Source: Anaerolineae bacterium
Lineage (GTDB): Bacteria > Chloroflexota > Anaerolineae > Promineifilales > Promineifilaceae
Length of the DNA: 64,000 nt
Direction: 5' to 3'
Assembly (NCBI GenBank): GCA_023954475.1
Contig: JAMLHW010000010.1
Location: 124,001-188,000, forward strand
Both the position numbers and the translations under genes were made by a program. Below are positions 4,155-62,817 of this stretch, one piece after another; the stretch's first letter is position 1; every line of letters starts with the position of its first letter. The notes under the pieces are model-generated. The model did no database searches. It saw only the letters and a program-made list of their open reading frames with translations, and had not been told where the DNA came from.

Positions 4155-4348
4155 TGATACTCCTTTAGTTTAGTCATTGGTTTGAATTTATCAATACTCA
4201 ATGGAGAGTACAATGCGGCAAGAGCATCGGGCATAAATTACCCCATGCTCTTGCACAATTCTTGTGGTTTGAATTCTTTCGCATTTTCGAATCGTGCAGA
4301 AGACGCGATCACATACGATCGCATAGTAGAGGCTTATTTACAGATTGG

Positions 4349-4738: not shown

Positions 4739-4850
4739 GCGCTATCTCGAACGGGGAACGCCGTTCACCTTCTTGCAAGTGTGGATTGAGCGGTAGACGT
4801 TCTGTAGGATATACGAATTGGGGATGGGCTTTGACGAGTTGAATTGGTTG

Positions 4851-22913: not shown

Positions 22914-23334
22914 TTAGCACACCTATTTCGTCATGAGAGGATGGCCCCAACCATTTACCTGTATCAAGCCAAAGCTCATAGTAAAAGAGCCACAAAGCCG
23001 CCCACGGCAAAATTGTATCAGCAATCAAGTGACTTGGATCCCAACGCCACTCTTTCGGCCAATATAAGCAAAGTGTGCCATCACCATAACAATGTGGCGG
23101 GTTATCAGTTAGATCAGGTGAGACAACGCGAACCTTTGGAAACTCTCTGTATTTGTAGCGAATTTCAACGCTGTACACAGGCGATGTGATTCGTGGCTGT
23201 AGCTCTCCCATCCATAAGGCGGATTGTCTTCTCAGAGTCGCCTGGAATGAAGGGAATCTTGATCGAATGTGACCGTCTTGTACGGCAATGCTAACCCATT
23301 TTGCTTTGGGTGGCCTCGGTTTACGTCTCGCCAT
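22882..23334 (-). CDS. CBASS E2-like protein (short type II system)
   Basis: About 150 residues from ATG 23334 (MARRKPRPPKAKW); it overlaps the CD-NTase gene by 14 bases. An upstream ATG at 23391 would extend inside that gene. The pattern VYSVEIRYKYREFPKVRVVS, PPHCYGDGTLCLYWPKEW (Cys in GTLCLYWP as the likely E2 catalytic residue), ADTILPWAALWLFYYELWL and TGKWLGPSSHDE is that of bacterial E2-like proteins found with CD-NTases lacking E1 and JAB partners. Such E2 proteins are thought to prime or load the CD-NTase. Confidence 0.82.
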   Translation of the reverse strand: MARRKPRPPKAKWVSIAVQDGHIRSRFPSFQATLRRQSALWMGELQPRITSPVYSVEIRYKYREFPKVRVVSPDLTDNPPHCYGDGTLCLYWPKEWRWDPSHLIADTILPWAALWLFYYELWLDTGKWLGPSSHDEIGVLNANTRNDQLS

Positions 23335-27259: not shown

Positions 27260-27263
27260 AACT

Positions 27264-28463: not shown

Positions 28464-28466
28464 AGT

Positions 28467-31400
28467 GTGATGATGACATCCCCCCTGACCCAAGCCGAAA
28501 AGCACTACTGTGATCAGGTAGCACGCAAATACAGTCGCCTAAAGCTGTCAGGGTTGCCGGAGCGCGATCCCAATTTGCATTCTGTCCCACTTGAGCGGAT
28601 TTTCGTCAAATTGCAGACAGAAGTTGAGCGGGTTTTGCCCGTTGAGCGTGAGGCAGAAGACGAGTCTAAATCCACACTCATTGATAGGGGCGGTGATCTG
28701 CCTCCTCAGCCTGTTACCGAAAGCAATGAGCTAGGCAATGTCACGTCTACCCAGAAGGATCCGAGAAGGCAAGAATCCAGAATCATCAGAGCAACCAAGT
28801 CAGTAGATGAAGCGCTGCATCAATACCGCCACCTGTCAATTGTCGGTGGCTCTGGCTCAGGCAAAACAACATTGATGCTTTGGTTGACGCTCATCTTCGC
28901 ACGCGAAGAGCAAGCTCGGGCAGTGAATTTGGGAGAGAAATTCGCGCAAGCCCGGCTGCCAATTTTGCTTGAACTACGCTACTTTGCAGATACTTTTGCA
29001 GATGAACGAAAGAATGCACACGTGCCAGACTTGGTGCAAATAATCGTAGACTATATTGACCAAGATGTATCCTATAAAGGTGTCGCATCGCGCACAATTC
29101 AGGAAGCTTTGGCTGAAGGTCGTTGCATTTTGTTGGTAGATGGCGTCGATGAAATCGTCGATTTGAAAGCGCGGCGGGAGTTTGCCCGCGCATTGGATGG
29201 ATTGTTCACGCGTAGCGATGGTGACTATGCAAGCAATTTGTGCCTGATTACCTCACGTCAACATGGTCTGCGCGATCTCGCTCTTCGTCCGCATTTTCAA
29301 ACTTGTTACGTCAAACCGTTCTCCGCGGATGATGTGGAACAGTTCCTAAAACAATGGTACGAAGCGGCGTATGGCAATGAAGCCAGTGATGTGGTGGCGA
29401 CACTATTCACTCAATTGGAGCAAAACAAGCGTGTGATGGCATTGGCAACTAATCCGCTACTCTGCACAATTATCGCCATTGTTTATCGCAACAACCGTGT
29501 CTTACCGCACCGTCGTGCAGAACTCTACTTGAAGTGTTGTGAAACCTTACTTGACAGGTGGGAGCGTGATAAGGGAATTGAGGTGTCTGACTGGTGGGAT
29601 CAGCACGATTGGCAAACAAAGCTCGAACTGCTTGCCGCGCTAGCTTATTGGCTACATGGAGAAGAGAATCGGATAGCTGCTACTGAAGAAAATTGCACTG
29701 AACAACTCGCTCAGATTTTTCTTGATAAAGGGCGACTGTCTGATCTCACATATGCCCGCCAGGAAGCTCGTCATTTCCTGCAGGCGGTGCGTAATCGTAG
29801 CGGTCTTATAAGTGAACGCGGTGACAGCACATTTGAGTTTGTGCATCTCACTTTTCAAGAGTACCTGGCTGCGCGGCATATTGCAGCGCAGGATTATCCA
29901 GAATACCTTGACGCTTTCATGCAGCATTACCTCGATCCATGGTGGCGTGAGGCACATCTTCTTGCAATAGGTCATTTGGGTTCTACGGGGGATACGGCTG
30001 AAAAGGCGTCTCAAATAATCCTTGCGATGCTCCATTTCCACCGACAGCCGATGCGCCTATTGCGTCCGACTTTCTCACCATCCACCCAGCGCGTGCTTGG
30101 TTTGGTTGACGAACATAGTACCAATCGCATCACAGAGTGGATTATTGGTGTACCGTTACTTTTGCCACTTCTTTTGCAGCACCGCATTGCTGGTTCGTTG
30201 GCCAGGCTACAGTGGCAGCGACGCATCGCTTGGTTGGCGGGACGCAATTTCGTAGCAGCTTCCACCGCTTTCGCCGAGTGCTCCCCTTTGGGTGTGTGTC
30301 CAGAAGTTGAAAAGGTCTTGCGTGAACAAGCATCATATTGGTTGGTTCAGATACTCAACGATCCCGGGTTGCACATCGGTATCCGCAACATGTCGCAAGA
30401 TAGAGATGAGTTCACGCTGTTTGGTAAATCGGAAACGCCACAAGAGATGGTGTCAGATAGCGAGTTGTATGAAAGATGCCTGTCATTTTTGATCGGTGAC
30501 ACTACCTTAGTTGCTCCAATTGTTGCAGCCATAAACAATCCTGATCCGGAGATTCAGCAAGTCGCCATTATGACGGCTCGATCGTTAGAGCTGCGCCACC
30601 ATAGAATCGTAACTGCTATTGAGACCTTACTCGACAACCCTGATGTGTCTCCTGATGTGCAGGAAACGATCTTTTCCCATATCGCATTCCTGACAGAAAA
30701 AGCCTCGCGAACAATCCCAATTCTCGAGCGCGGGGTGGCTATCAAGCGATCCTATGCTGGGTATCGTGCCATTACCGCACTGGGAGAGCTAGAGGGTCTT
30801 GCATCTGAGGATGTGGCGTTACTGCATCCACTGTTGAAGACGACTGAGAACAGCTCAGTTCGCAATGCGATTGCAAAATGCATGGCTCAGGCGGACTCAT
30901 TGACATCAGATTCGGCCAAGATTCTTATGGAAAAACTGATTGAGCACAGTGAAGACCATCCGTTCATTACTTATGGAATCAAGGCATTGAGCAAGCATAG
31001 TCAGTCGCTTCCAATTTGTCGTGCTCACTTGAAACATATTCTTGAGAGCGATGCTGACAAATGGTTGCGTCGCCGAGCGGCTGAGCAACTGGGCAATTTG
31101 CCCGATGCAGACGCCGAGATCATCGAGTCGCTCGTCAATTCTATGAGAGACGAGGATGAAGTTGAGGAAGCTGCGGCAAAAGCACTGGCGAGAATTGGAG
31201 CCAGCAATCAAATAGCTGTCAATCGATTGATTGATATCGCGGTAGCAGCAGACCTACCTGAAGGAGCACGATATGTGGCTCTGAATGCCTTGTCAGAAAT
31301 GCCCAACGTGCCGACCAATCGATTACTAGGTATTCTGGAGTCTATAACGTCATTGTCCGATTATTATCTCTACAATCGAGCCACAATAGGCAAATCTTTT

Positions 31401-38451: not shown

Positions 38452-40260
38452 ATGGACGCACAAGCAATCTACGACATTTGGACAGGGGCGTTTGGTGATG
38501 GGATCGGTGGCCTGGCCAGCACCATGATCACCGCCGCCACTGTTGCCATCCGTAAGCGATTTGAGCGGGATCCGGTTGAAAAGGCATTGTATACTGCTCT
38601 GGAAGAAGCTTTGCTAGAAGCAGCCGAGAAGGCATTGCGCTCTGATCAAGCCGGTGTCACCGATTATTACATTCAATGTGTGGCAACGTATTTACGTCGA
38701 CCCGCTGTGCAAGCGCAGCTGGCCATCTTGCTAGAGCCGCACTCTCTGGCCCTTGATGAGGCGGCTGCTATCGTCGATACACAACGCGCTCATTTTACCC
38801 AGGTGGCAAACGGCTATTTGCCTGAGCAGATACCTGACCTCGACTTCGAGCATTATCTGACGACGCTATTTGGTGCATTTTATCGAGCAGCTGAACGGCA
38901 ACCGACACTCCAACCAATAATTGAATTGCGTCTGTTGAGTCGTATGTGTACCGAGTTGAATAGTGTTTTGCTTGCCAGTACACGAATTGCCCACGACACA
39001 AAGCGCGGGGCTGATTCGGCCGAACTTATTGCCGGTTACACCGAACCGCTTGCCGACAAGCTCGACGCACTACATCAGGAATTACGTTGGATGCGTCAGG
39101 AAGGATCCACGAACCGTATTTTGGCAGACGAAGCGAAGCAAGCACAATGGTCAGAATTCGTTGAGGCGATCAACGCTTTGTTGAAAGACAGGGAAAAGGA
39201 ATCACGTCAGTTCGAACCTGAAAAAACTGGCAATTTGCCGGCCAGACCCGGTTTGTTAATTGGGCGTGAAGAAGCAATAAATGATCTGAAACAACGCTTT
39301 GGGTTAGCCGCTGGTACCGAAGCGCCATCCCTTCAGATTCTGACGACGGTGCGTGGGTGGCCTGGGGTGGGCAAAACAACAGTGGCCTCGGCTCTGGCTC
39401 ATGACCCTGATGTGCAAGCTGCATTTCCTGACGGTATTTTGTGGGTGTCATTAGGCGAATCCCCTAACGTATTGAGTGAACTGGCGACGTGGGGCCGATT
39501 GCTGGGTATTGATGAGGTCATGCGCGCCAACGATCCTGCACGCGCCGCTGAAATACTACGCATGACATTACATAATCAGCGGCGGTTGATCATTGTCGAT
39601 GACATCTGGGATGAGCAGATTGCCACCTTTTTCAAGATCGGTGGCCCCCAATGTGCGACATTGTTTACAACCCGTTTGCCACTTGTGGCAAACGCCATTG
39701 CTGAAGCGCCGGATGACGTGTATGTTCTTGCTGTATTAACAGACGAAAAAGCTTTCTTATTACTGCGTCGCCTCGCGCCACATGTTGTGACAGAGTACCC
39801 CGACGAATCACTAAAATTGGTGCAAGAGCTTGAAGGATTGCCCCTTGCCATTCAGGTTGCCGGAAGATTGCTGCATGAGGAGCAATCTCTAGGCTTCAGT
39901 GTGCAAAAATTAATGGCAGATCTCAGGGAAGGCGCAGCTTTGATCGAAGCACAGGCGCCAGCCGACCGGGTCGATGTTGCAACCCAAACAATACCCACAG
40001 TGGCCGTATTGCTTCAAAAAAGCACGGCCATGCTCGATGAACAAACGCTGGAATGTTTTGCGTTTTTGGGCGCATTTGCGCCAAAGCCAGCCACTTTCGA
40101 TTTGGATGCAATGAAATTTGTCTGGCAGGTGGATGATCCCAAGCCGTTTGTCCGAACGCTAGTGGCACGTGGTTTGCTGGAGCCGGTGGTTGAAATCGGC
40201 CGATTTCAAATGCATGCACTTCTGGTAACTCATGCCAAAGCACTGCTGGATGCAGGGTAG
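38452..40260 (+). CDS. NB-ARC (STAND) ATPase without its own TPR tail
   Basis: 602 residues. Residues 1-215 are an alpha-helical N-terminal domain of unknown function with a glycine-rich amphipathic stretch (GDGIGGLASTMITAATVAIR). Residues 270-570 are NB-ARC: Walker A VRGWPGVGKTTVASAL (about 304), Walker B RRLIIVDDIWDEQ (about 382), ATLFTTRLPLV, GLPLAIQVAGRLL. The C terminus stops at the winged helix (IGRFQMHALLVTHAKALL), exactly where fused homologues continue into RHAxYYL-type TPR repeats. Those repeats occur here as separate genes before and after. It is thus a signalling switch, probably of defence or cell-death type, whose sensor is in trans. This is inferred from architecture. Confidence 0.85.
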   Translation: MDAQAIYDIWTGAFGDGIGGLASTMITAATVAIRKRFERDPVEKALYTALEEALLEAAEKALRSDQAGVTDYYIQCVATYLRRPAVQAQLAILLEPHSLALDEAAAIVDTQRAHFTQVANGYLPEQIPDLDFEHYLTTLFGAFYRAAERQPTLQPIIELRLLSRMCTELNSVLLASTRIAHDTKRGADSAELIAGYTEPLADKLDALHQELRWMRQEGSTNRILADEAKQAQWSEFVEAINALLKDREKESRQFEPEKTGNLPARPGLLIGREEAINDLKQRFGLAAGTEAPSLQILTTVRGWPGVGKTTVASALAHDPDVQAAFPDGILWVSLGESPNVLSELATWGRLLGIDEVMRANDPARAAEILRMTLHNQRRLIIVDDIWDEQIATFFKIGGPQCATLFTTRLPLVANAIAEAPDDVYVLAVLTDEKAFLLLRRLAPHVVTEYPDESLKLVQELEGLPLAIQVAGRLLHEEQSLGFSVQKLMADLREGAALIEAQAPADRVDVATQTIPTVAVLLQKSTAMLDEQTLECFAFLGAFAPKPATFDLDAMKFVWQVDDPKPFVRTLVARGLLEPVVEIGRFQMHALLVTHAKALLDAG

Positions 40261-42139: not shown

Positions 42140-43959
42140 TGTACTGTTTTATTACATCGTGGGTCTTCCCAGATTTATGTGAAGGTGAGCCGCCCATGCC
42201 ACAGTACGCATTTGCGCAGTAGTTGAAATCCTGCTCGATCGTACATCATCCGCTTAATTATTTTCAGACGATTTATCTGACCTTCAACTTGTCCATTGCT
42301 AAATTCAGAAGTGAAAGCAGCTTGAACCGCCGCGAGGTCAAGTTCAATTCCTTTGGCGAAACCAGATAGATACGATGCTGTAGACCGTTTTGTCGTAGCC
42401 AACCAGTCGTTGAGAAAATCGTCTTTGCGTTGGCGCAATGCGTCGATAAATTGAGCGGCGATGTCGGTGGCAGCTGCAATGGTGGGTTCTCGTTGAACAA
42501 GTGAATCTAACCACTGCTTGTGTTCAGTCGACCGATTGTGAGCGGGCATCATCACAATGGTGGCAAGCCGACGTGGGGTTAGATGTGACATCTTGCGTGA
42601 GGGCTCCCGCCTGATTTGCGCAGGCGTTGTAAGGCCAAGTTCATGGCGAAGTTGACAAACCCAACCATAAAGGGTTGACCGGCTGTGTTGGTATCCCTTT
42701 TCCTGCAACTCGGCTAGCAATTGATTAATGGAAGGCGGTGATGGGTCTTGCAAGCGACCTATCATGTAGACACGATACGGATTCGCAATCCGCCACCCGC
42801 TCGGTTTAGGGGATGTTCTTCGAGGGAGTGTCTCAAGTCGCATGTACTTTTGCACCGTCCCCTTGGCAAGGCGCGTAGTGCGAATAATCTCTGCTGCGGA
42901 ATACCCATTTGCTTGTAATTGCTTGACCTCAGCAAAGCGCGCCTCCCACTTTTTCCGCCTTTCTTGGCATACGATCTCGGTGGGTGAAAGCGTGCGTTTT
43001 TTGGCTGATTGTTGTTTTTCATCAGCAATTGGTTGCGTTTCTTTTGCATACTCACTCGATTGTTCGACGGGCTGTCGCTCTTGTTTAGGTACAGCATAGG
43101 TACAGCATATTCTCGCAAAAGTGGTGCGTGTGCCTCATACGTCTTTGCCAATGCGTCCCACAAATTGTGGAGCAGGTGCCAGCGGTCGGCCACCTGCTGA
43201 GCATCTGGGACACCTTGCCTTGCACCTTCTGCGTATGCGCCCGCTCTGTCCCGACTCACCACTTCAATCGTCGGATGTGTTTTGAGCCATTTCTCAACAG
43301 TGTCCGCCTGACTATCGGCTAACAAGTCGATCACTTGTCGTTTCTCCAAGTCGACGACAATTGTGCCGTACCTGCGCCGCCGGCATTGTGCCCAATCATC
43401 AATGCCAACGACTCGTATTGCTTCATCTGCTTCTACATCGGGTAACGCTCTCAACCGATTATTGACCGCTGCATCGCTGATCCCGATTCTCATATGCGAC
43501 AGCACAACTTCGGCCGCACGCGCTGCCATTGCCAGCCCTATCGCCTGTTGAGATTGTTCCACTTGCTTTGTCTGTCTTGCGTAAGGCCCTACTAATTCTG
43601 GAAATCGTTCCGCAAATGTCTGTTTCTGACACATTTGGTTCTTGCATCTGTAACGTTGCACCTGCATCTGCAGCATCACCTGCCACTTTGCCCATGCCAA
43701 TGATTGCACCACCCGCTCATACCAACTGTGTTTCGTTGCACTCGGCTCGCCGCACGCTGGGCATGTTGCCACGTCACTGTTGGCTGCTACCTTCATCAAC
43801 AACACGTTGCCCACCTGGATTACATCGGTTACTGTAAACGGCGGCAAGTCCAAAATCCTTGTCCATACACTTTCCCAGTTCATACTTTGTTACAACTTAC
43901 ACCGCCTCATTTCGTTTCACATAAATCTGGGAAGACCCACGATGTAATAAAACAGTACA
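42140..43959 (-). mobile_element. ISL3-family insertion sequence with 44-bp terminal repeats
   Basis: Positions 42140-42183 and 43916-43959 are inverted repeats that I read as identical over 44 bases (begin TGTACTGTTTTATTACATCG, continue with GGGTCTTCCCAGATTTATGT and GAA). The element carries a transposase in two frames on the minus strand. Its right side abuts a truncated IS6 transposase; its left side lies in the upstream region of the TPR gene. No direct target repeat is visible. Confidence 0.85.
42175..43883 (-). pseudogene. ISL3-family transposase, frameshifted
   Basis: The first frame (ATG 43883) contains the ISL3 zinc-binding N terminus (VATCPACGEPSATKHSWYER; RYRCKNQMCQKQTFAERFPE) and the catalytic core (VVGIDDWAQCRRRRYGTIVV; VVSRDRAGAYAEGARQGVPD; VADRWHLLHNLWDALA). 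Near 42830 homology moves into the frame starting about 42855, which continues with PSINQLLAELQEKGYQHSRS and ends with FSNGQVEGQINRLKIIKRMM. One frameshift separates them. The perfect ends suggest recent insertion, so a sequencing error or programmed shift is possible. Confidence 0.8.
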
Positions 43960-49643: not shown

Positions 49644-52487
49644 ATGAACCAGCCTGCCTTACTAATAGAAGACAACCACTCTGCCCCCACTGCCGACCCT
49701 ATCTCTATCACCGTCCGCGATCTCACCGTCCATCCCGGCCACGACCGCACGCGCTTCAATCTGGCCAAGCTGGCCGGTTTGTGCCTGCAGATCATCGCCC
49801 GTGGCGGCATCGACCCCACCCGCCCCGTCGTTGCGGCCGAAAATGCAGACGGTGACGGAACCTGGCAGATCATCAGCGGCTACCGGCGTTATGTGGCTCA
49901 GGTGCTGGCTTACGGCGTGCGCGAATGGGTCGACCGCGAGCCGGAACGCATTGCAACTGAAGGTGGTCTGACGTTGGGATTTGTCGAAGAACTGGTTCTG
50001 AAGATGATTACCACTTTCGGCCGAAAACCAGCCCCCAATGGTCACAACGGGTCAATCGCCAATGGCAGTCAACCGCTTCTATCTATAACAACCGACGTGC
50101 CTGCCGCCCAAATCCGCGCTACCGTCGCCGCCTTGCTGCAAGTGTACGGCGAGCGCGACATCCAGATCGTACCGTTCACCGGCAACATCAAGCAGCAATT
50201 GCTCACCCTGCAAAGCGACAACGCCGGAGCCGAAACCCCGGACAAGCTGGGCCAGGCGCATTCCTTCAAAGCGGCCTACGAAGCAGGCGCAACGCCGCAG
50301 GAGATCGCCCGCCACAGCGGCATGAAGCTCTCCGATGTGCTCAACCTGCTGGCGTTGACCCAGGTGCCGCCCGCCATTGCCGAGGCATGTGCTGCCGGCA
50401 GCATCGGCTTTGGCGTCGTCACGGCATTGGCTGCACTCAAGTCGCCACGCAAGGACGGCGTCGCCGACTTTGTCCTCAGCGCCTTTGACCGGCAGGATAT
50501 CGCCCTCACCGTCGAACGCGTCAAGAAGGTGTGTCGCGAGATCGGCGGCTGGCAGGGCATCACGCCGCCGTTGACCTATGCCAAACAGGCGCAGCGCAAT
50601 GTCGCCCGCTGCCTGACGCGGCTGTGGACGCGAACGGTCACTGACAACCCCGGCATGGCCTGGACAGCGGCCGCCGAGATGGCATATTGCTACACGCTTG
50701 ACGCACCGTGGGTAGATCCCGACCTGACCCGCAGCTGGCTGCGTCTGCTCGACACAGACCACCGCTACATCACGGCCCAAGGCGAGATTCAGTGGCAACA
50801 CGTTATTGCCGACCTGTTGACGGAAGTCACCTGTGCAACCTGCCCGGTCAATCAATTGCCCCAACGACAACTGACCACCGACATCGGCGAGGGACGCGGC
50901 GGCGCGACCGGCATTCCGTGCCGGACAGCAACACGCGCAGAACACGGCAACTGCCTGCATGGCTTTGCACCGGGCGATGCGGTCAGTCTGCCCGTTCCCT
51001 TCTCCTGGGCAGAGCACCCCGGCGTGACCGGCAGCGGCGGCATCTACACCGTCACATCGGCCGAAACCCTGCAGCAGGCGTGGCAAGCCCAGGCTGCTCT
51101 GGAATGGCAGGAAAGCAGCGTCGTGTTTCCCGCCGCTGCCATTCTGTTTCCGGTCGTCGTCGCCGGTGATCATGTACCCGAGCCGTGGACGCTGTATCGC
51201 ACCACGGCCGACATCGAAGGCGAACCCCTCAGCGGCTACTATGCCGAACGATCGCTAGCCGGTGCCGACAGTGCGCGTCCGGATTCGGCCGAACGTGTGC
51301 AGAGCGATGTCGCAGCAAACACCGCCCTCTCGCTGGAACAAGTCGAGCGCACACCGACCCTGCGCACCATTCAGGATGTGCAGGACGCCATCCAATACGC
51401 AGACACAGCCCCTGCCCGGCCAACCATCATTCGGCCGAAAGTGGTCGTTCACAGTTTCCTGGCCACCGACGCCGTTCAACCCGCACCAGATCGCCCGGTG
51501 CAACCGGGTGAGATTCCCGGCTCTAAAGCGTTCTATGAAAAAGCCACAGGCTGGCAGTTAATCATCTCCATGCGTCACAACGGCATCTACCTCTACGGGG
51601 AACACAAATCGGCCGACATCCCGACGCGTACACGCGGGCACGACAGCGTCGATGGGGTGTTGGAGGAGATAGCAGGAAAGGATGAAGGCGGGAGGATGAA
51701 GGATGAAACGGGAGAAGAAAAGAGGAAGGATGAAGGTGGAGGGCGGAAGGCGGAAGAAGAAAGGCAGAGAGCGGAAGGCGAAAGGCGGAAGGCGGAAAGG
51801 GAAGACACAGACTCCCAATCCCTGGCCCCAGATGCCCCATCTCCGCCATCACTCACGTCTACCCAGCGGCAGATCGCAGATTACATGCAAACGCATACCA
51901 GCGGCAGCACGACACATCCGTTTGCCACGCCGTGTGCGCGCTGCCGGCACAAGCTGACGCAGAGTCCGGTCAAGGGCAACAAACACGCCCCACCCTGCGC
52001 GTGGGCCAAAGGACGGCGCAATCTACGTTTCACCACGCTGAAGCCGGCCGATGGGTACAGCTTCGGCAAAGAAGGCTTGCAACCGATCCCTATCTGCCAC
52101 CAATATGCACCCGTTGACACAGCGTGGAAACAACTCATTCCGGCGTATGCAGGCAAGGATGCCCCACCCCGCGCTTGGTTAATCGCCCAAATCCAGCGCC
52201 TGAGCGCCCTGCTCCAGCGCGACGCCTACACCGACCCGCGCAGCAACGTCACCCAGCGCGGCTTTGAGTTTCTCACCGGTCGGCCGATGGGCAGCAATGA
52301 GAGTCATAGTGACTGGTTTGAGCAACGGTTCGCTGAAAGTGTCGGCGATCTGAGTGATGCCCAGCTGATGACGCTCTTCATCTGGTGTCACAGCGAGCAT
52401 GAGCGCTTGCAACAGCATAGCGCTGGTTTTCTATTACCGGTCAGCAGCGGCGCTCAGCAGTTCGTCAGAGTTAGAGAAGAGGGATAA
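49644..52487 (+). CDS. ParB-related protein, first gene of the PRTRC-like cassette
   Basis: 947 residues from ATG 49644 (MNQPALLIEDNHSAPTA); an upstream open stretch lacks a start with RBS. Residues 20-110 are a ParB N-terminal (Srx-like) domain with RTRFNLAKLAGLCLQIIARG and WQIISGYRRYVAQVLAYG. A KorB-type helix-turn-helix follows at about 215-250 (GATPQEIARHSGMKLSDVLN). The C-terminal half has Cys motifs (CATCPVNQLPQRQ; CARCRHKLTQSPVKG with later CAWAK and ICHQYAP) that may bind zinc or an iron-sulfur cluster. Residues 672-722 are a highly charged linker from a purine-rich repeat. ParB-related proteins of this kind head PRTRC cassettes on plasmids and integrative elements. Confidence 0.75.
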   Translation: MNQPALLIEDNHSAPTADPISITVRDLTVHPGHDRTRFNLAKLAGLCLQIIARGGIDPTRPVVAAENADGDGTWQIISGYRRYVAQVLAYGVREWVDREPERIATEGGLTLGFVEELVLKMITTFGRKPAPNGHNGSIANGSQPLLSITTDVPAAQIRATVAALLQVYGERDIQIVPFTGNIKQQLLTLQSDNAGAETPDKLGQAHSFKAAYEAGATPQEIARHSGMKLSDVLNLLALTQVPPAIAEACAAGSIGFGVVTALAALKSPRKDGVADFVLSAFDRQDIALTVERVKKVCREIGGWQGITPPLTYAKQAQRNVARCLTRLWTRTVTDNPGMAWTAAAEMAYCYTLDAPWVDPDLTRSWLRLLDTDHRYITAQGEIQWQHVIADLLTEVTCATCPVNQLPQRQLTTDIGEGRGGATGIPCRTATRAEHGNCLHGFAPGDAVSLPVPFSWAEHPGVTGSGGIYTVTSAETLQQAWQAQAALEWQESSVVFPAAAILFPVVVAGDHVPEPWTLYRTTADIEGEPLSGYYAERSLAGADSARPDSAERVQSDVAANTALSLEQVERTPTLRTIQDVQDAIQYADTAPARPTIIRPKVVVHSFLATDAVQPAPDRPVQPGEIPGSKAFYEKATGWQLIISMRHNGIYLYGEHKSADIPTRTRGHDSVDGVLEEIAGKDEGGRMKDETGEEKRKDEGGGRKAEEERQRAEGERRKAEREDTDSQSLAPDAPSPPSLTSTQRQIADYMQTHTSGSTTHPFATPCARCRHKLTQSPVKGNKHAPPCAWAKGRRNLRFTTLKPADGYSFGKEGLQPIPICHQYAPVDTAWKQLIPAYAGKDAPPRAWLIAQIQRLSALLQRDAYTDPRSNVTQRGFEFLTGRPMGSNESHSDWFEQRFAESVGDLSDAQLMTLFIWCHSEHERLQQHSAGFLLPVSSGAQQFVRVREEG
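51660..51815 (+). repeat. Purine-rich low-complexity tract inside the ParB-related gene
   Basis: About 150 bases composed almost only of A and G, built from degenerate units such as GGATGAAGG and GGCGGAAGGCGGAA. It keeps the frame and encodes a Lys/Glu/Arg/Gly linker. The same style of repeat is found between genes in other bacteria, so it may be an intergenic repeat captured by the gene. Confidence 0.7.
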
Positions 52488-54589: not shown

Positions 54590-55170
54590 CACCAATGAAT
54601 GAAAATGGGACACAGATTTGTGAGATGAACACAGATGCTGCCCGGTTTTATCTGCGTCATCCGCGTCTATCTGCGTCCTGTTGCCTGTAAAGCGAAATGA
54701 AAATGGGACACGGATTTGTGAGATGAACACAGATGCTACCCGGTTTTATCTGCGTCATCTGCGTTTATCTGCGTCCTGTTATCAGTAGAAGCGAAATGAA
54801 AACGGGACGCGGATTTGCGGGATGAACACAGATGCTGCACCGTCTTATCTGCGTCATCTGCGTTTATCTGCGGCCTATTATCAGTAGAAGCGAAATGAAA
54901 ACGGGACACGGATTTGTGAGATGAACACAGATGCTGCCCGGTTTTATCTGCGTCATCTGCGTTTATCTGCGTCCTGTTGCCAGTAGAAGCGAAATGAAAA
55001 CGGGACACGGATTTGTGAGATGAACACAGATGCTGCCCGGTTTTATCTGCGTCTATCTGCGTCCTATCACCTATAAAGCGAAACGAAAACGGGACACGGA
55101 TTTGCATGATCAACACAGATGCTGCCTGGTCTTATCTGTGACATCCGCGTCTATCTGTGTCCCCATTACC
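54590..55170. repeat. Six tandem copies of a 99-bp repeat
   Basis: Units are anchored by GATGAACACAGATGCTGCCC-like sequence at 54624, 54722, 54821, 54920, 55019 and (diverged) 55108, so periods of 98, 99, 99, 99 and 89 bases. Each unit contains CACGGATTTGTGAG, TTTTATCTGCGTCATCTGCG, TTTATCTGCGTCCTGTT and GCGAAATGAAAACGGGAC. It has inverted short words (CAGATG/CATCTG, GCGTC/GACGC), so each unit can fold. No coding role. Confidence 0.88.
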
Positions 55171-55188
55171 AGGAGAGGCGAACCGAGC

Positions 55189-55664: not shown

Positions 55665-56348
55665 ATGTCCCAGGATAGTCCCTACCGCCGTCTGCGCGAT
55701 CTGGCGGTAGAAGAACAGCCATTGTCCCGTCTCAATCAGGTCGGTGCCGCCGCATTGGCCACCTCTGAACTGCTGGCCCTGCTGCTGGGCTGTGCGCCCG
55801 ACCTCGGCTCCGATTTGCTGTGCCACTTCGGTTCGCTGCATCGTCTGGCACGTGCCCCGCGCAGCCGCCTGATGCAGCGTCACGGTATCGGCCGATCCCA
55901 GGCCGCCCGCCTGCATGCCGTTGCCGAGCTGGCACGCCGTCTGCAAGCACCCCCTCAGGATGAACGCCAACGCATCAACAGTCCGGCCGATGCCGCCAAT
56001 CTGCTCATGCCGTCCATGCGCCATCTGCAGCAGGAGCATCTCTGCACGATTCTGCTCGACACGCGCAACGGGGTACTCGGTATTGAGACGATCTACGTCG
56101 GTAGCCTGAACAGCAGCGTGGTGCGTATTGGCGAGATCTTCCGTCCCGCCATTGAGGCACCGGCCGCTGCCATTATCCTCGCGCATTCGCACCCGTCGGG
56201 CAATCCATCGCCGTCACCTGAAGATGTCCGCGTCACGCGTGAAGTCTGCAAGGCGGGCAAGCTGCTCAGTATAGAGTTATTGGATCACCTTATTATTGGT
56301 GATGGCAGCTGGGTTAGTTTGAAAGATCGCAATCTTGGTTTTGACTGA
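55665..56348 (+). CDS. RadC-like JAMM/MPN+ domain protein
   Basis: 227 residues from ATG 55665 (AAGGAAA upstream); an open frame beginning at 55344 lies over the preceding gene. Residues 1-100 hold a helix-hairpin-helix (LMQRHGIGRSQAARLHAVAE). Residues 105-227 are the RadC/DUF2466 JAMM domain with AHSHPSGNPSPSPEDVRVT (HxH and Asp metal ligands) and VRIGEIFRPAIEAPAAAIIL. RadC-like proteins are common in integrative elements; the enzymatic target is not settled. It is one of two JAMM proteins in this cassette. Confidence 0.88.
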   Translation: MSQDSPYRRLRDLAVEEQPLSRLNQVGAAALATSELLALLLGCAPDLGSDLLCHFGSLHRLARAPRSRLMQRHGIGRSQAARLHAVAELARRLQAPPQDERQRINSPADAANLLMPSMRHLQQEHLCTILLDTRNGVLGIETIYVGSLNSSVVRIGEIFRPAIEAPAAAIILAHSHPSGNPSPSPEDVRVTREVCKAGKLLSIELLDHLIIGDGSWVSLKDRNLGFD

Positions 56349-56419
56349 CCGGCAATAGAGTAACTGAACCACCTGCGATCTTGAACGCACATAATCGACA
56401 AGCCAGCCAAGGAGACACC

Positions 56420-56899
56420 ATGAACCTCGCCGACCTATTCCAATCCCAACTCGAAGACACACCTGCACAAGTCACAGCGCCGGAGGGCGTGCCCGATTCG
56501 GCCGAAACCCCCTTGACACAACCGGCTGATTCGCTGGCCGACAAGCCGGTTGAGATCGTGTTGACCCTGCTGCCCGGTGCGCCCTTCAGTACCCGTCGCA
56601 TCAAGGGCGCCGTCTCGGTTGACGGCAACTTACCCCTGTTCCTGACAACAGACGCCGTGGCAACGGCCATGCTGACCGTAATCGAAGAAGCATATGGGCA
56701 ACTACGGCAGCAAGCTGAGGCGAAAAATTCGGCCGAACCTGTGCTGAGCGCAGCCGCAGTACCTATGCTGAGCCCAGCCGCAGTACGTGTGCAGAGCGAT
56801 GCCAGAGCAAATGTAGCCAACGCCGTCATGGCCACTGGTAACGGTGTAGCAATCGACGAACGCGTAGAGAAGGCACAAGGCGCACTCAGCATTTTCTAG
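56420..56899 (+). CDS. Hypothetical protein of the mobile cassette
   Basis: 159 residues from ATG 56420 with AAGGAG. A low-complexity N terminus is followed by a strand-rich core (PVEIVLTLLPGAPFSTRRIK; LPLFLTTDAVATAMLTVIEE) and an alanine-rich tail in which a short unit AAAV-PMLS-PAAV is duplicated at DNA level. Position and size would suit one of the small PRTRC proteins (E or D), but I cannot establish homology. Confidence 0.5.
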   Translation: MNLADLFQSQLEDTPAQVTAPEGVPDSAETPLTQPADSLADKPVEIVLTLLPGAPFSTRRIKGAVSVDGNLPLFLTTDAVATAMLTVIEEAYGQLRQQAEAKNSAEPVLSAAAVPMLSPAAVRVQSDARANVANAVMATGNGVAIDERVEKAQGALSIF

Positions 56900-57023
56900 C
56901 AGAGCGGACCTCACCAACTGGTACTCTCGAGTAGACTGTGTGGAAAGCAGTTCCCCCGGTTGTCACTGCAATACATTGTCGTATGCTATAATGACCAAAA
57001 GTCGGCAGCAAGAGGAAATTGAC

Positions 57024-57344
57024 ATGCAGACACGATTTGAAGCCGTAACTGTACCGCTTGAATACAATGACCAGGGCGTCATTCGCATCAGCGGGACCCG
57101 CGTCTCACTGGATTCGGTTATGTACGCCTATAACGAAGGGGCGACACCGGAAGAAATCGTCTACCGTTTCCCCAGTCTGAGACTGGATGACGTGTATGCA
57201 GTCATCTCCTATGCACTCAAGCACCCTGACCTCATTGCCGCGTATCTTCAGGAGCAGCAGGACGCACGAATTGAACTGGAAAGGTACGGCACAGTTGACA
57301 ATTTGCGAGTTCGTTTGCTGGCGCGGCGCACTGTAGGTAAGTGA
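57024..57344 (+). CDS. DUF433-type antitoxin
   Basis: 106 residues from ATG 57024 with GAGGAAA. VIRISGTRVSLDSVMYAYNE, GATPEEIVYRFPSLRLDDVY and AVISYALKHPDLIAAYLQEQ is the DUF433 (VapB-like, RHH-HTH) signature. It is followed 18 bases later by a DUF5615 PIN-like protein, its usual partner. Confidence 0.85.
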   Translation: MQTRFEAVTVPLEYNDQGVIRISGTRVSLDSVMYAYNEGATPEEIVYRFPSLRLDDVYAVISYALKHPDLIAAYLQEQQDARIELERYGTVDNLRVRLLARRTVGK

Positions 57345-57362
57345 TAGATCAGGGTGTCCCCC

Positions 57363-57713
57363 ATGCGTTTTCTGGCAGATGAAGATTTCGACAATCGCAT
57401 AGTAAGAGGCGTTTTGCGTCGCTTGCCGCACGTCGACATGGTTCGGGTGCAAGATACGCGGCTAGCAGGTGCGACCGATACGATGGTATTGGCCTGGGCT
57501 GCTGCCGAGGAGCGGATTCTGTTGACACATGACGTGCGTACAATGACTGTTCATGCGGCGCAGCGCATACAAGCGGGATTGCCAATGCCGGGCGTCTTGT
57601 TCGTGAGGCAATCACTCTCGGTGCGTGAGGTGATCGACGATCTGGTCCTGATCGCCGAATATGGCATTGAAGACGAATTGCGCAATCAGATGCGTTTTCT
57701 ACCGCTCACATAG
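57363..57713 (+). CDS. DUF5615 PIN-like toxin
   Basis: 116 residues from ATG 57363 (MRFLADEDFDNRIVRGVL); GTG 57354 is an alternative start. The PIN-like acidic residues are in LADEDFD, AAAEERILLTHDVRTMT and PMPGVLFVRQ. These proteins are the toxin part of DUF433/DUF5615 modules, probably RNases. The pair may stabilise the island. The following 57714-57934 contain no gene. Confidence 0.82.
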   Translation: MRFLADEDFDNRIVRGVLRRLPHVDMVRVQDTRLAGATDTMVLAWAAAEERILLTHDVRTMTVHAAQRIQAGLPMPGVLFVRQSLSVREVIDDLVLIAEYGIEDELRNQMRFLPLT

Positions 57714-57934: not shown

Positions 57935-58213
57935 ATGAGTGCAACATCCACGACTCCCAAACCCCGCCGCTTCATCTACGGCGATCTGGTCATCGATCAG
58001 GACCCGGGCAGCCATTACAGCAATGAAGACGTGCGCCGCTATCTGGCCGCATACAGCTATCCCGAAGTCGCCAACTGCGACATCGTCGTCAGCGACAAGG
58101 ACGACCACACCGAAGTGCGCTTTATTAAGAAAGCGACGACCAAAGGTCGGACAACCAAAGGTCGGACAACCAAAGGTCGGACAACCAGGGGGATCGGTGA
58201 ACAGCCTGGATGA
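57935..58213 (+). CDS. Ubiquitin-like protein (PRTRC protein C / Prok_Ub) with repeated C-terminal tail
   Basis: 92 residues from ATG 57935 with AAAGGAAA upstream. RRFIYGDLVIDQDPGSHYSN, EDVRRYLAAYSYPEVANCDI and DDHTEVRFIKKATTKG match the Prok_Ub pattern (DPG..S.E.VR..YA..YPE.ANA....F.....TKG). PRTRC protein C ends shortly after the TKG. Here a 15-bp unit has been tandemly repeated, so that TTKGR recurs and the tail ends TTRGIGEQPG. In related systems a C-terminal glycine is the conjugated residue. E2-, E1- and JAMM-like genes lie 2.3-4.6 kb downstream. Confidence 0.75.
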   Translation: MSATSTTPKPRRFIYGDLVIDQDPGSHYSNEDVRRYLAAYSYPEVANCDIVVSDKDDHTEVRFIKKATTKGRTTKGRTTKGRTTRGIGEQPG

Positions 58214-58496
58214 CTTCGCCATCCATGACGTCATCCTGACCGCCATTCGCGATCTGCCTCCTGACGCCATGCAGCCCATTGCCGATATTGAAGCTCAGAT
58301 CACCACCCTGCTCACCCGGGCTGCCGCATTGGAAGCCGGCGACGAGACGGCATGGGATGACATCGAAGCCGTGACCGCTGTCCTGGTCGAATACATTACA
58401 GGAGCAGATGCATGGACGGGCAGCCGCTATTCTCTCCAGCGCCATCTCCGGCAGGTGCGACCGTCCCCGGCAGTGTTTATCCCCACGGGTTTCTAG
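58197..58496 (+). CDS. Hypothetical acidic protein overlapping the ubiquitin-like gene
   Basis: 99 residues from GTG 58197 (GGGGGA upstream), overlapping the previous gene by 17 bases and the next by 85. VNSLDDFAIHDVILTAIRDL, PPDAMQPIADIEAQITTLLT and DDIEAVTAVLVEYITGADAW predict a helical acidic protein. The last 30 residues overlap the next gene in another frame and may not be under selection. No family recognised. Confidence 0.5.
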   Translation: MNSLDDFAIHDVILTAIRDLPPDAMQPIADIEAQITTLLTRAAALEAGDETAWDDIEAVTAVLVEYITGADAWTGSRYSLQRHLRQVRPSPAVFIPTGF

Positions 58497-59374
58497 ACCG
58501 ACCGCTGCTGACACCGCGCTACCTGCCGGGAACCACCTACTACGGCCATTGCGACGAGACGATCCGGTGGTCACTCGCTGTCTATGCCCGTATCGTGACG
58601 CTCATCCGTAGGCTGTTCCCCGACGAACTCCCCCTCTACCCGCAGTTCAATCCGCTGGACAGCAACGACATGGAAGCGGCAATTGGCAAGCTGCACCGGC
58701 TCGTCAATGACAGGCTGTTTCCCGTATACGATCTGGCAGCTGAAGCCGGGTACTTTTATGAAGACGACGACGGCGACGGGCATCTGCCCGACAACCTCAT
58801 CTGGCTGACGCCGGCTGTGCTGGGTGTCACCTATGACAGCGACTACGCCGCTCCCTACGGCAACCATGCCGAGAGCGGCGCCTTTGGCACGCGCGGCGTG
58901 GTCGATTTCATGATGGCGCTCGCCGCTGAGGAAATCGGTGCCGTCAATCCGTACGACGCAGACCGCATTCCCAACACGCCCTTCGGCATCGCCCGCTATC
59001 ACTACGGCACAGCACCGTCCGCCAGCTTCTCGCTGCAGAACGCGCTGCACGGCATCGGCTGCATCACCCTGCCCCAGCCGTACGACGCGCTGCCGCTGCT
59101 GCTGCGCATTGTCCTCAAGCAGACCGGCAACCCCTTCCTCGACATGGGTGCAGACGAACAGTGGGAGGCCACCATCGAATGGGACGACGGCGAGGCTATC
59201 GGCAGACTGACACAAGCATACCGACAGGTACAGCCATGGCTGGAAACAATGCGACAGTTCGACCTGTTCTACAAGCGAGAGCAGACCAGTACGCGGCGCA
59301 CCATCCTGGGCTACCTGGTGTCAGCGTGGCAGATTGGCAGTGGTCAGCTGGCCCTGTTCCCCACGCTCGTCTGA
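58412..59374 (+). CDS. Unknown protein, paralogue A of an adjacent pair
   Basis: 320 residues from ATG 58412. Central segment AAIGKLHRLVNDRLFPVYDL, NLIWLTPAVLGVTYDSDYAA, SGAFGTRGVVDFMMALAAEE and a C-terminal helix with YLVSAWQIGSGQLALFP. The next gene has the same pattern in the same order, so they arose by duplication. No catalytic motif stands out; conserved Asp/Glu and aromatic residues suggest a soluble protein. The stop overlaps the next start (TGATG). I know no family; it is tied to the ubiquitin-like cassette by position. Confidence 0.7.
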   Translation: MDGQPLFSPAPSPAGATVPGSVYPHGFLDRPLLTPRYLPGTTYYGHCDETIRWSLAVYARIVTLIRRLFPDELPLYPQFNPLDSNDMEAAIGKLHRLVNDRLFPVYDLAAEAGYFYEDDDGDGHLPDNLIWLTPAVLGVTYDSDYAAPYGNHAESGAFGTRGVVDFMMALAAEEIGAVNPYDADRIPNTPFGIARYHYGTAPSASFSLQNALHGIGCITLPQPYDALPLLLRIVLKQTGNPFLDMGADEQWEATIEWDDGEAIGRLTQAYRQVQPWLETMRQFDLFYKREQTSTRRTILGYLVSAWQIGSGQLALFPTLV

Positions 59375-60252
59375 TGAACCCGCTGACTGACGCAGGCTTT
59401 CTGGATAGGAAGGCGGCAATACAGGTACAGCCTGAAATCAAAGAAGCGCTGCGCCATGCCACCTGGGCAGCCTACAACAGTGTTGCCCTGCGCCAACTGG
59501 AGCAGCTGCTGACCGGTACGCCCGGTTCGCTCGCACCTGTGACACAGCCCACTGACGCCGAACACGTCGCCAATGCGATCGGGCAGTTTCAGGAAGCGGT
59601 CAACGAGCACCTGTTCCCGATCACCACCGACTGGTACGTCGAAATCGGCGCAGATTTCCCTGCCGCGCCGCTCATCTGGCTGGTTCCCGATGTCCACGGC
59701 GTCGAGTACGATGCCACATTCACTGCCGATGAGAACGGTGCGTTTGCTGAACCCGGCATCATCGACTGCCTGATGGCGCTGGCTGCTGCTGAGATGGGGT
59801 ATGTCGTCAGCAACGAACTGCCCGACGGCATAATCCATGACAGCACCATGCCATTTTCGCTCCTATGCGCCTTCTACCCCGACATCTCCCAACCGCCAAC
59901 TGGCTTCACGCTCTCGGCCATACTCAAGACACTGCAACAGATACCTCTTGAGCCACCCTACAATTGCCTACCACAAGCCGTGCAGATGGTGCTGAAAGCA
60001 ACCGACAACGCCTACCTCGACTGGAGCCATAGCGACATCATCATGAACAATGTCGAAGTCACCTGGGCTGATGAGGGCGTGTTTCTGGCCGAGGAATGGC
60101 AGGCTGCCCAAAGTTGGCTCGCTGCGAGTGCCACGCTGGTGCAAGCCCAGGGCACGACTGACCGCGACAGACGGGCATTCTGCCGTCGCTGTGCCGGCGT
60201 CCTCTACCGCGCCTGGTACATCAGCCAGGGTCAGTTGGCGATGGCGCTCTAG
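59374..60252 (+). CDS. Unknown protein, paralogue B of an adjacent pair
   Basis: 292 residues from ATG 59374, coupled to the preceding gene by TGATG; a frame starting at 59161 lies over that gene and is rejected. Shared with paralogue A: NAIGQFQEAVNEHLFPITTD, PLIWLVPDVHGVEYDATFTA, GAFAEPGIIDCLMALAAAEM and CAGVLYRAWYISQGQLAMAL. The last codon and stop lie in the left arm of a small inverted-repeat element, which may have replaced the original end. Confidence 0.7.
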   Translation: MNPLTDAGFLDRKAAIQVQPEIKEALRHATWAAYNSVALRQLEQLLTGTPGSLAPVTQPTDAEHVANAIGQFQEAVNEHLFPITTDWYVEIGADFPAAPLIWLVPDVHGVEYDATFTADENGAFAEPGIIDCLMALAAAEMGYVVSNELPDGIIHDSTMPFSLLCAFYPDISQPPTGFTLSAILKTLQQIPLEPPYNCLPQAVQMVLKATDNAYLDWSHSDIIMNNVEVTWADEGVFLAEEWQAAQSWLAASATLVQAQGTTDRDRRAFCRRCAGVLYRAWYISQGQLAMAL

Positions 60253-60399
60253 CAGTCTGTCGGAGAAGTCAAAACAGGACGCAGATGAACGCAGATAAAC
60301 ACTGATCTGAAGCGATTTTTGACCAAAAAATGCCCCAATACCTGCGGTAATCTTGAAAATCTGCGTCCCATAGTTCTTTTTCCGACAAGCTGCTAGCAG
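60249..60399. mobile_element. MITE-like inverted-repeat element, about 150 bp
   Basis: CTAGCAGTCTGTCGGAGAA at 60249 and, inverted, CTAGCAGCTTGTCGGAAAA ending at 60399 are terminal repeats with three mismatches. The inside contains GCAGATGAACGCAGATAAAC, related in style to the 99-bp repeats. The left end supplies the stop codon of the gene before it. Between it and 60530 no gene is seen. Confidence 0.6.
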
Positions 60400-60530
60400 G
60401 CTGAATGGAAAAAACGGATTCAGAAAAATACGTCTCTCCGTGAAAATCCGTCCCATCCGTAATAAAAACACCGCTAACAGCTCGCCTGCCTGTCAACCAG
60501 GCACCATAGACCGACCTCTTAAAGACAACC

Positions 60531-61292
60531 ATGACTCACCTCAACCTCGAACCCGTCCAGCCACTGGTGCAAATCAACCTGTACGCCCACTGTACGACGC
60601 TGACCCGCACAGAGGGCGATGCTGTACAGACATACCTCGTCGATGACAAGACAATTGCCAACCTGTTCGCGCCGGCACGCAGCATTGCTACCGGCTTTCT
60701 GCCGCCGCATATCCTTGCCTGGGGGATGGACGCACAAGAGTCCGAATGGGTCGTCGCCTATTTCAAGCCGGCTGTGCGTGACGTCGTCTTGCGCGACGGC
60801 GGCAAAACGGAGCGCCTCACCCTGCCCTTCCCCGGCTGTGTGCTGCGCGGACACGGTCGCTCATACGCCATTTGGGCCGTCAAGCGCCGACCGCAAAACG
60901 CCAACGCCTTGCTCTATCGTTTCCCGGCACCCAACGTGCATGGCAACGGGGCTATCTGTAACGGCAGCGCCACCTTTCCCCAGGCATCGCTCGCCACCAT
61001 CGACACGGCTTTGGACACCTTTTTCACCTCAGCCTTCAATGACCATCTGGCAGGCGAAGCCATTCACGACGGCAAGCTGCTCGATTTGTGGAGGGCGCTG
61101 CATATGCAGCGGGCGCTTGATGACAAGCGGTCGCTTGACGACAAGCAGGCGCTCGCCAACGAACAAACCAGTCAGGCATTAGCACAACTGCCAGAAAGCA
61201 AGCACCAGCACAGCAAGCATAGCAAACCGAAAGCCCAGCGCTTTCCAACCGACCGCCTGATCCGCGCCGGTCGTCTCCAGGAGATTCTCTGA
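60531..61292 (+). CDS. PRTRC protein B (Prok-E2_D, E2-like)
   Basis: 253 residues. The pattern FLPPHILAWGMDAQESEWVV, GCVLRGHGRSYAIWAVKRRP, NALLYRFPAPNVHGNGAICN and TFFTSAFNDHLAGEAIHDGK is that of PRTRC protein B, which belongs to the E2-like Prok-E2_D group (Cys in GAICNG as the candidate active residue). The C-terminal 60 residues are a Lys/Gln/His-rich tail with a short ALDDK repeat. The stop overlaps the next start (TGATG). It should pair with the ubiquitin-like protein and the ThiF protein. Confidence 0.78.
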   Translation: MTHLNLEPVQPLVQINLYAHCTTLTRTEGDAVQTYLVDDKTIANLFAPARSIATGFLPPHILAWGMDAQESEWVVAYFKPAVRDVVLRDGGKTERLTLPFPGCVLRGHGRSYAIWAVKRRPQNANALLYRFPAPNVHGNGAICNGSATFPQASLATIDTALDTFFTSAFNDHLAGEAIHDGKLLDLWRALHMQRALDDKRSLDDKQALANEQTSQALAQLPESKHQHSKHSKPKAQRFPTDRLIRAGRLQEIL

Positions 61293-61898
61293 TGTTCACC
61301 AACCTGATCGGATACCAGTTCGCTACCACGACGGAGTGGCCGCTTAAAACAGTTGTCGGCTACCAATACATCGTCGGCCGCAACGGTGTCTTTATCCACG
61401 ACGCCAATCCGTTCTTTGAGGTGGTAGCTCCCGTGGCGACGTTCACCCTGCACGGTGATTTGCCTCCCATCACACCGGGCATCCGGCTCAAGCAGCCCAA
61501 ACTGCCCGGTACGGTACTGGAGCAAATCATTGCCGATGCCCGTCAGGCAAAACGGCACGGCCTGCTCATCGAAGCGTTCTACGCCGTCTTTCGCTTTGGT
61601 ACCAGGATATCGGTCGTCAAACCGCGCCAGGACGCCAGCCTGAGCCACGTCACGGCACCGGGCGGCAACGAGTCCAACCTGTTCATGCGTCCACACCCAC
61701 GGCAGCGGCAGCGCCTATTTCAGCAATACCGACGACAAAGACGAACAAGGCCTCAACCTCTACTGTGTCCTCGGCAACCTCAACCAACCAATCCCCAGCA
61801 GCGTCCTCCGCGCCGGTGTCCACGGCCATTTCCTGCTATTGAAGATCACTGACGTGTTCACAGCAACACCGCTGCTGAAAGCGATGAGTGACGAGTGA
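61292..61898 (+). pseudogene. PRTRC protein A (JAMM/MPN peptidase-like), one frameshift
   Basis: From ATG 61292 the frame MFTNLIGYQFATTTEWPLKT, through LPGTVLEQIIADARQAKRHG and GGNESNLFM, is coding-like. At about 61685-61700 homology changes frame to CVHTHGSGSAYFSNTDDKDE, GLNLYCVLGNLNQPIPSSVL and AGVHGHFLLLKITDVFT, ending TGA 61896-61898. HTHGSGSAYFSNTD carries the JAMM zinc ligands (HxH and S-x-x-D), so this is the deubiquitinase-like member of the cassette. A one-base indel or sequencing error breaks it. Confidence 0.7.
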
Positions 61899-61955
61899 CG
61901 AGTGATCAGTGGACAGTGATCAGTGGACAGCGGGCAGTGAATAGTGATCAGTATC
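61880..61955. repeat. Short tandem CAGTG/GTGATCAGT repeats
   Basis: Runs of GACGAGT and GTGATCAGTGGACA repeated two to three times between the JAMM-like gene and the ThiF gene, ending AGTGATCAGTATCC. Contains TGATCA palindromes. No coding function seen. Confidence 0.6.
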
Positions 61956-61998
61956 CTGTCTTCCTCTAGCTCTATCTCAAAACTCTACACTTCCCCCC

Positions 61999-62817
61999 AT
62001 GAACCTCACCGACATCGCCATCCCCTACCGCGTCATCACGCGCAAAGAGAAACGCATCGCCGTCTTCCTCATCGGCTGTGGTGGTACCGGCAGTCAGCTG
62101 GCACCCCATTTGGCACGCACCCTGCTCGCAGCCCGTGAGCACGCCATTGAAGCCCACGCCGTTTTTGTCGATTCCGACAGCGTTGAAGAGAAAAACGTGC
62201 TGGCGCGCCAGAATTTCTGCGCGGCCGAAATCGGGCGCAACAAGGCAGTGGCGCTGGCATGGCGCTACAATGCAGCGTATGGGCTGAACATCGCGGCCAT
62301 TCCCGAAGCATTGACGGTCACCAGGGCACGCAGTTGGCTGCGACAGGTGGCGTCGGGCATGCCGGTGCTGTTCATCGGTTGTGTCGACAACACCGCCGCC
62401 CGCGCGGCCATGGCAACGATCATTGAAGGGCTGGACGGACGCGGCTGGTGGTTGGACAGCGGCAATGCGTACGGCAACGGTCACATCCTGTTGGGCAACA
62501 GCGCCCGTCCGCGCAAGCCGAAACTCGACATGGGCCTGCTCTCTGCACTACCTGCTCCGCACATCCAGGATCCGGCCATTATCGCTGCTGAGTCACAATC
62601 CAAAGCAATGAGTTGTGCCGAATTGACGCTGGCGGCCGCACAAGGGCCGGTCGTCAACACCATCGCGGCGGCATTGGCGGCCCAGTACGTGCATAACAGC
62701 ATCGTTGAAGGCAGCGTCACAGCGTTCGCGACGCGGTTCAACAGCGACCCGCCTGTCGTGCGCAGCCGCCTGACGACGGCGACTGAGTTGGCACCGTATT
62801 GGGATCGTGCGCTGTGA
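61999..62817 (+). CDS. PRTRC ThiF-family (E1-like) protein
   Basis: 272 residues. The adenylate-forming nucleotide site is FLIGCGGTGSQLAPHL, then FVDSDSVEEKNVLARQNFCA (Asp/Arg/Asn/Gln residues that bind ATP and Mg) and LFIGCVDNTAARAAM. This is an E1-like activating domain. The PRTRC ThiF family is of this length and lacks further domains. A candidate catalytic Cys is in AMSCAELTLAAAQGP. It follows Prok-E2_D and JAMM genes and a strong terminator lies 52 bases downstream, so it is the last gene of that operon. Confidence 0.83.
   Translation: MNLTDIAIPYRVITRKEKRIAVFLIGCGGTGSQLAPHLARTLLAAREHAIEAHAVFVDSDSVEEKNVLARQNFCAAEIGRNKAVALAWRYNAAYGLNIAAIPEALTVTRARSWLRQVASGMPVLFIGCVDNTAARAAMATIIEGLDGRGWWLDSGNAYGNGHILLGNSARPRKPKLDMGLLSALPAPHIQDPAIIAAESQSKAMSCAELTLAAAQGPVVNTIAAALAAQYVHNSIVEGSVTAFATRFNSDPPVVRSRLTTATELAPYWDRAL

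Follow-up and report, generated by a model that had tools for sequence, protein, structure and literature searches.

Composition and class of the cassette

The question raised by positions 57935-62817 of the 64,000-nt stretch from an Anaerolineae bacterium (hereafter the window, whose numbering is used for all positions) is what the genes of this array do together. A sequence-only reading had described a cassette of the PRTRC kind, with genes for a ubiquitin-like protein (Ubl), an E2-like protein, a JAMM peptidase and an E1-like protein behind ParB-like and RadC-like genes. This description is borne out by the positions of the open reading frames (ORFs) and by profile matches. The Ubl, E2, JAMM and E1 ORFs were confirmed, all on the forward strand and overlapping or closely spaced, and the array is a genuine Ubl + E2 + JAMM + E1 cassette. 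It appears to be a divergent member of the Iyer type 6d/PRTRC kind which quite probably conjugates its Ubl; we infer the conjugation, its target and the roles of the E-like and F proteins.

Pfam and NCBIfam were scanned, and our own profiles, which drew on relatives and excluded the window ("window-free"), were run against the 768 ORFs of the window. The features are listed below with E values.

49653-52487, forward: ParB-related protein, 944 aa; parB_part 1.1e-4, PRTRC_parB 5.5e-4 and HTH_ParB 1.4e-4, all under cut-off
55665-56348, forward: RadC-like JAB-domain protein; PF04002 7.6e-41
56420-56899, forward: E-like protein (56381-56899 as matched in the profile search); window-free E-like profile 8.9e-5, the only significant match; C-terminus ALSIF
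57935-58213, forward: beta-grasp-type Ubl with an extension after its TTKG tail; window-free profile 2.4e-11; Prok_Ub 7e-4 and PRTRC_C 0.002, both under cut-off
58135-58187, forward: minisatellite with a 15-bp unit in 3.5 copies, coding for the TTKGR repeats of the Ubl tail (Tandem Repeats Finder)
58197-58496, forward: small helical domain protein, a separate gene with GTG start and AGGGGG upstream; ends IPTGF; top window match 2.6e-5
58412-59374, forward: F1, alpha-helical component, copy 1; window-free F profile 4e-10; ends GQLALFPTLV
59374-60252, forward: F2, alpha-helical component, copy 2; window-free F profile 1.9e-13
60531-61292, forward: E2-like protein (Prok-E2_D); PF14460 1.7e-21 (passes the Pfam cut-off) and PRTRC_B 1e-15; Cys143 kept
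61292-61688, forward: N-terminal half of JAMM, first frame; JAMM profile 2.7e-24 over 61295-61660
61689-61898, forward: catalytic half of JAMM HTHGSGSAYFSNTDD, second frame; JAMM profile 2e-22 over 61689-61874
61999-62817, forward: E1-like protein, ThiF family; PRTRC_ThiF 1.8e-32

Operon type 6d of Iyer et al. (2006, PMC1779556) consists of a Ubl with a C-terminal glycine, a rapidly diverging alpha-helical protein, an E2-like protein with a conserved Cys, a JAB protein and an E1. The glycine tail, the E2 with its Cys, the diverging helical protein and the E1 are all present in the window. The type 6d JAB protein has an N-terminal domain, and both halves are found here, in different frames. In type 6d the E2-like protein also carries an absolutely conserved His on the C-terminal side of its Cys. 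The window has a His in FNDHLAG, but our alignment of 25 E2 sequences, in which Cys143 is invariant, contains no invariant His column of this kind. The E1 retains every residue that is invariant in 31 relatives, including Cys206. Two matches of the E1 to adenosine kinase (E = 7e-4, no stretch passing alone) look like chance and were rejected. The cassette is best placed in type 6d, which takes in PRTRC. Unlike the published type 6d, it has two copies of the helical protein, a repeated and extended Ubl tail and a frameshifted JAMM.

The gene order matches that of PRTRC (NCBIfam TIGR03734-TIGR03742), which is ParB, E, Ubl (C), F, E2 (B), JAMM (A) and E1 (ThiF), as in loci L117, L118 and L122, if a duplicated F and the interposed RadC and DUF433/DUF5615 pair are allowed for. 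The Ubl tail of PRTRC likewise ends in G-x-K-G. The cassette differs from PRTRC in its extra small domain, its duplicated F and the nearby RadC. The sequence-only reading is supported in part. Prok-E2_D matches above the Pfam cut-off, whereas Prok_Ub and five PRTRC models match under theirs: PRTRC_B (57.7 bits, cut-off 131.45), PRTRC_ThiF (112.6, cut-off 144.75), PRTRC_C (18.1, cut-off 45.95), PRTRC_A (13.6, cut-off 101.8; E = 0.036) and PRTRC_parB (18.6, cut-off 278.6). Because of these scores, and because F has no detectable similarity to proteobacterial PRTRC_F, we regard the cassette as a divergent relative of Chloroflexota/cyanobacterial type, which resembles PRTRC but is not one of its filed members. 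The searchable literature yielded no function for PRTRC or type 6d cassettes. Nor did any paper there tie PRTRC to ubiquitin-like or clamp biology, which is weak evidence of novelty as subscription papers were largely outside the search.

Among 301 evenly drawn genomes of the same phylum, the E2 was found in 27, the genome of the window included; one of the 27 matches a Candidatus Chlorohelix allophototropha plasmid. The window E2 as a single query found no relative in genome contigs. A scan with the cyanobacterial subset of the E2 alignment, the full 25-sequence alignment being too diverse, gave 31 further loci, nearly all cyanobacterial. Similar cassettes are on cyanobacterial and other plasmids, and the class is mostly plasmid-borne. 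The plasmid cassettes of Trichormus variabilis ATCC 29413 (plasmid C, L077) and Anabaena cylindrica (pANACY.02, L072) share gene set, order, homologous F, E-like protein and small domain with the window. They differ in that the small domain is fused to the Ubl, F is single and the E-like protein has a consensus QLxLF terminus. Other cassettes from Chloroflexota (L041, L046-L048, L037/L062 and L042) share phylum and cassette. In L048, unlike the window, Ubl, small domain and F are fused in one 431-aa ORF (3455-4750, reverse-strand coordinates).

The genes between Ubl and E2

Neither Pfam nor NCBIfam has a family for the genes at 58197, 58412 and 59374. The profile for the first was built from the small domains of relatives, either fused to Ubl or separate. 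Its protein ends in the G[FW]-COOH terminus present in 13 of 22 relatives versus 8 of 1175 background ORFs. 58197 encodes, as a gene of its own, the helical domain that in many relatives is attached to the Ubl behind the GTKG tail. In the predicted structure of one related Ubl-small fusion, the order is strand-strand-helix-strand-strand, followed by GTKG in a low-confidence linker. The fold search with this model gave nothing at E <= 0.001; its weak matches include the beta-grasp protein L and the Ubl domain of Dsk2.

F1 and F2 are 34% identical to each other and are the only significant matches of the F profile in the window. They are sisters in the tree (support 97/96), and separate, independent duplications of F are seen in L062 and in the L042 lineage. 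F1 and F2 are a tandem duplicate of the alpha-helical protein found between Ubl and E2 in relatives. No match between F and proteobacterial PRTRC_F was obtained in either direction by profile or profile-profile comparison, although both occupy the same slot and fast divergence could mask homology. The AlphaFold2 model of F2 is all-helical, with a confidence (predicted local distance difference test, pLDDT, 51) too low for a fold search.

The sequence-only reading had taken the three genes as insertions between Ubl and E2 and as possible targets or ligase-like parts. Their position and the lack of a named family fit this. However, homologues fill the same slot in relatives, the duplication of F is lineage-specific and recurrent, and the window-free profiles of the relatives' components find all three genes, which makes them normal cassette parts. 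They are refuted as insertions, and newly inserted targets or ligases are most improbable. The sequence-only reading would have been refuted if the two unknown genes occurred mostly outside such cassettes; their homologues were found within cassettes, which is in its favour. F may still have a ligase-like role.

JAMM and the length of the Ubl tail

The JAMM gene (61292-61898, forward strand) is split by one frameshift just ahead of the catalytic histidines. Because of this frameshift the JAMM ORF scores weakly against PRTRC_A. The 186-aa JAMM ORF seen by the sequence-only reading, which missed the frameshift, has a nonsense C-terminus; the halves match in two frames. The junction is free of further damage, and the JAMM motif is intact in 27 of 27 relatives examined. 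As each half still scores around 1e-22 to 1e-24, the break appears to be recent or an artefact. A programmed frameshift was considered and rejected: the junction has neither a stop codon nor an evident slippery run. Past the window end, a methylase-helicase gene (L035 5180-9302) looks frameshift-split near L035:6400, while its homologue in L051 is one ORF; this hints at assembly errors and is no proof.

The Ubl is the sole significant match of its profile in the window, and its TTKG sits at the aligned tail position with the extension behind. The Ubls of relatives either end exactly at the tail glycine or run on by two residues up to a whole domain. In the 62 cassettes that carry Ubl and E1 on the same contig, an extended Ubl is accompanied by JAMM in 48 cases and lacks it in none, whereas an exact-end Ubl is accompanied by JAMM in three cases and lacks it in 11 (Fisher 7e-10 over loci). 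Most cyanobacterial loci are near-identical, so the fair figure is that after clustering at 50% E1 identity: 12/0 for extended and 2/7 for exact-end Ubls (Fisher p = 3e-4). The contrast is also seen among close relatives. L074 has a two-residue extension and JAMM, and L079, L115 and L116 have an exact end and no JAMM; likewise L042 (three residues, JAMM) versus L039 and L043 (exact, no JAMM). Among the loci without JAMM, those that keep Ubl, E2 and E1 in order have at most 139 bases between E2 and E1, too few for a JAMM gene there. From this co-occurrence with extended tails, JAMM is probably the maturation protease of the Ubl, which would give the protease a concrete job.

The Ubl of the window is extended by TTKGR repeats and would therefore need its JAMM. 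As assembled, the window copy would be unable to process its Ubl, barring an assembly error behind the frameshift or a substitute protease. RadC at 55665-56348 is the second copy in this genome, the other being on contig C20, and no RadC was found in other cassette loci. A role of this RadC as a stand-in for the broken JAMM was considered and not adopted, though intriguing given that distribution. A 99-bp unit in six tandem copies (54598-55182) lies upstream of RadC. Three minisatellites lie inside cassette genes, namely that in the Ubl tail and those at 56737-56798 (24 bp) and 61108-61153 (18 bp), and all their units are multiples of three.

The proposed working is as follows. The Ubl would be made with residues past the TKG glycine, and JAMM would cut there and expose the glycine, as the co-occurrence suggests. 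E1 would adenylate the Ubl and may carry it on Cys206. E2 would take it on Cys143 and hand it on to a target. F1 and F2, two copies of one helical protein, may act as a partner, possibly an adaptor or a ligase-like component. In other lineages the E-like protein may place the system at the replication clamp by its QLxLF tail, a feature that is weak in the window copy.

The E-like protein, the replication clamp and rival explanations

The gene at 56420-56899 belongs to the cassette as the counterpart of the E-like gene of relatives. Between it and the Ubl lies the DUF433/DUF5615 gene pair (56940-57713, forward strand), which is toxin-antitoxin-like. Binding to the bacterial beta clamp has the consensus peptide QLxLF, often C-terminal (PMC4549789). 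E-like proteins of cyanobacteria and of one Chloroflexota lineage have this C-terminal end, which occurs in 40 of the 61 loci where the gene preceding the Ubl was scored. Once clustered at 40% identity, the strict motif is in the last 10 residues in six of 14 clusters and the relaxed form in nine, and the strict motif is in the last 14 residues of 5 of 919 other ORFs; as the end lengths differ (10 versus 14) and the clusters are homologous, the comparison is descriptive. The dnaN gene lies inside the fetched flanks of 12 loci from several lineages, and immediately upstream of E in L041 and L046-L048, unlike in the window. In the proteobacterial PRTRC_E the ends (such as LASLL, NLFA and SLF) are degenerate and not consensus. 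The QLALF at the end of F1 may be a chance match. In L049, L052 and L054, cassettes without an adjacent E-like gene, the gene after E1 encodes a protein starting with M-T-(S)-T-Q-L-T-L-F, an N-terminal clamp-type motif.

It is possible, though we hold it only tentatively, that PRTRC-type cassettes are clamp-directed: the E-like protein would dock on the beta sliding clamp by its C-terminal QLxLF, and E1/E2 would modify either the clamp itself or the element's replication proteins bound to it. If so, these cassettes would be a bacterial counterpart to PCNA modification. The tail makes the replication clamp the first candidate for where the system works. Should either the maturation or the clamp reading prove true, a widespread, uncharacterised plasmid-borne Ubl system would be testable in culturable cyanobacteria.

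Several points weigh against the conjugation reading or its parts. All five PRTRC models tested are under their curated cut-offs, the JAMM is frameshifted in the window copy, and no meaningful solved relatives of E2, F or Ubl were found. The maturation idea arose on about 12 loci that are all inside the later test set, where many cyanobacterial loci are near-identical. JAMM was scored at the locus, and JAMM-less loci could carry one elsewhere in the genome. The exact-end cassettes L117, L118 and L123 retain JAMM, so that it may have an additional role. For the clamp, the end ALSIF of the window's E-like protein is a degenerate motif, which makes the link weak here, and the only dnaN in the window's genome lies on a different contig.

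Decay is an explanation that we consider rather unlikely: the window copy would be a non-functional cassette with a real JAMM frameshift, a slippage-expanded Ubl tail, and E-like and Ubl genes split by DUF433/DUF5615. The single frameshift, the apparently split methylase-helicase gene and the three in-frame minisatellites in cassette linkers are consistent with it. However, E1 and E2 keep all invariant residues, F1, F2 and Ubl are intact, both JAMM halves score strongly around an otherwise undamaged junction, and a sequencing or assembly error would equally give one frameshift. That the cassette acts against phage, in the manner of CBASS Cap2/Cap3 or Bil, is less probable still. The region holds CBASS and type I restriction genes, CBASS lies beside one cyanobacterial cassette, and PADLOC gives weak matches of the E1 to CBASS E1-E2 models. 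These E1 matches are generic, whereas E2, Ubl and JAMM have no PADLOC match to such systems, and relatives are found among plasmid replication genes, not consistently among defence genes.

A sulfur-carrier pathway like ThiS/ThiF instead of protein conjugation is highly unlikely. The E1 also matches ThiF adenylyltransferase models (1.8e-9), and some sulfur-transfer operons hold JAMM and Ubl-like proteins (Iyer et al. 2006, PMC1779556), but an E2-like protein with the invariant Cys is always present here, and the neighbours are replication and partition genes with no linked metabolic enzymes. Both the anti-phage and the sulfur-transfer readings fit less well than Ubl conjugation. Most likely the system serves Ubl conjugation on an element that is, or once was, mobile, and F is a partner in it. 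As to a plasmid or integrative and conjugative element origin of the window itself, no integrase or TraG-type match was found on its contig C2, where there is only one AAA_31 match, at ~80.8 kb.

In the wider window, adjoining SAVED-domain and SMODS-domain genes form a CBASS-type pair at 21264-24394 (reverse strand). Type I restriction HsdM and HsdS, followed by a 1839-aa ORF, are at 25703-33986 (forward strand). An NB-ARC ATPase protein is at 38452-40260 (forward strand) with TPR-repeat genes around it, and an ISL3-family transposase is at 42762-43883 (reverse strand).

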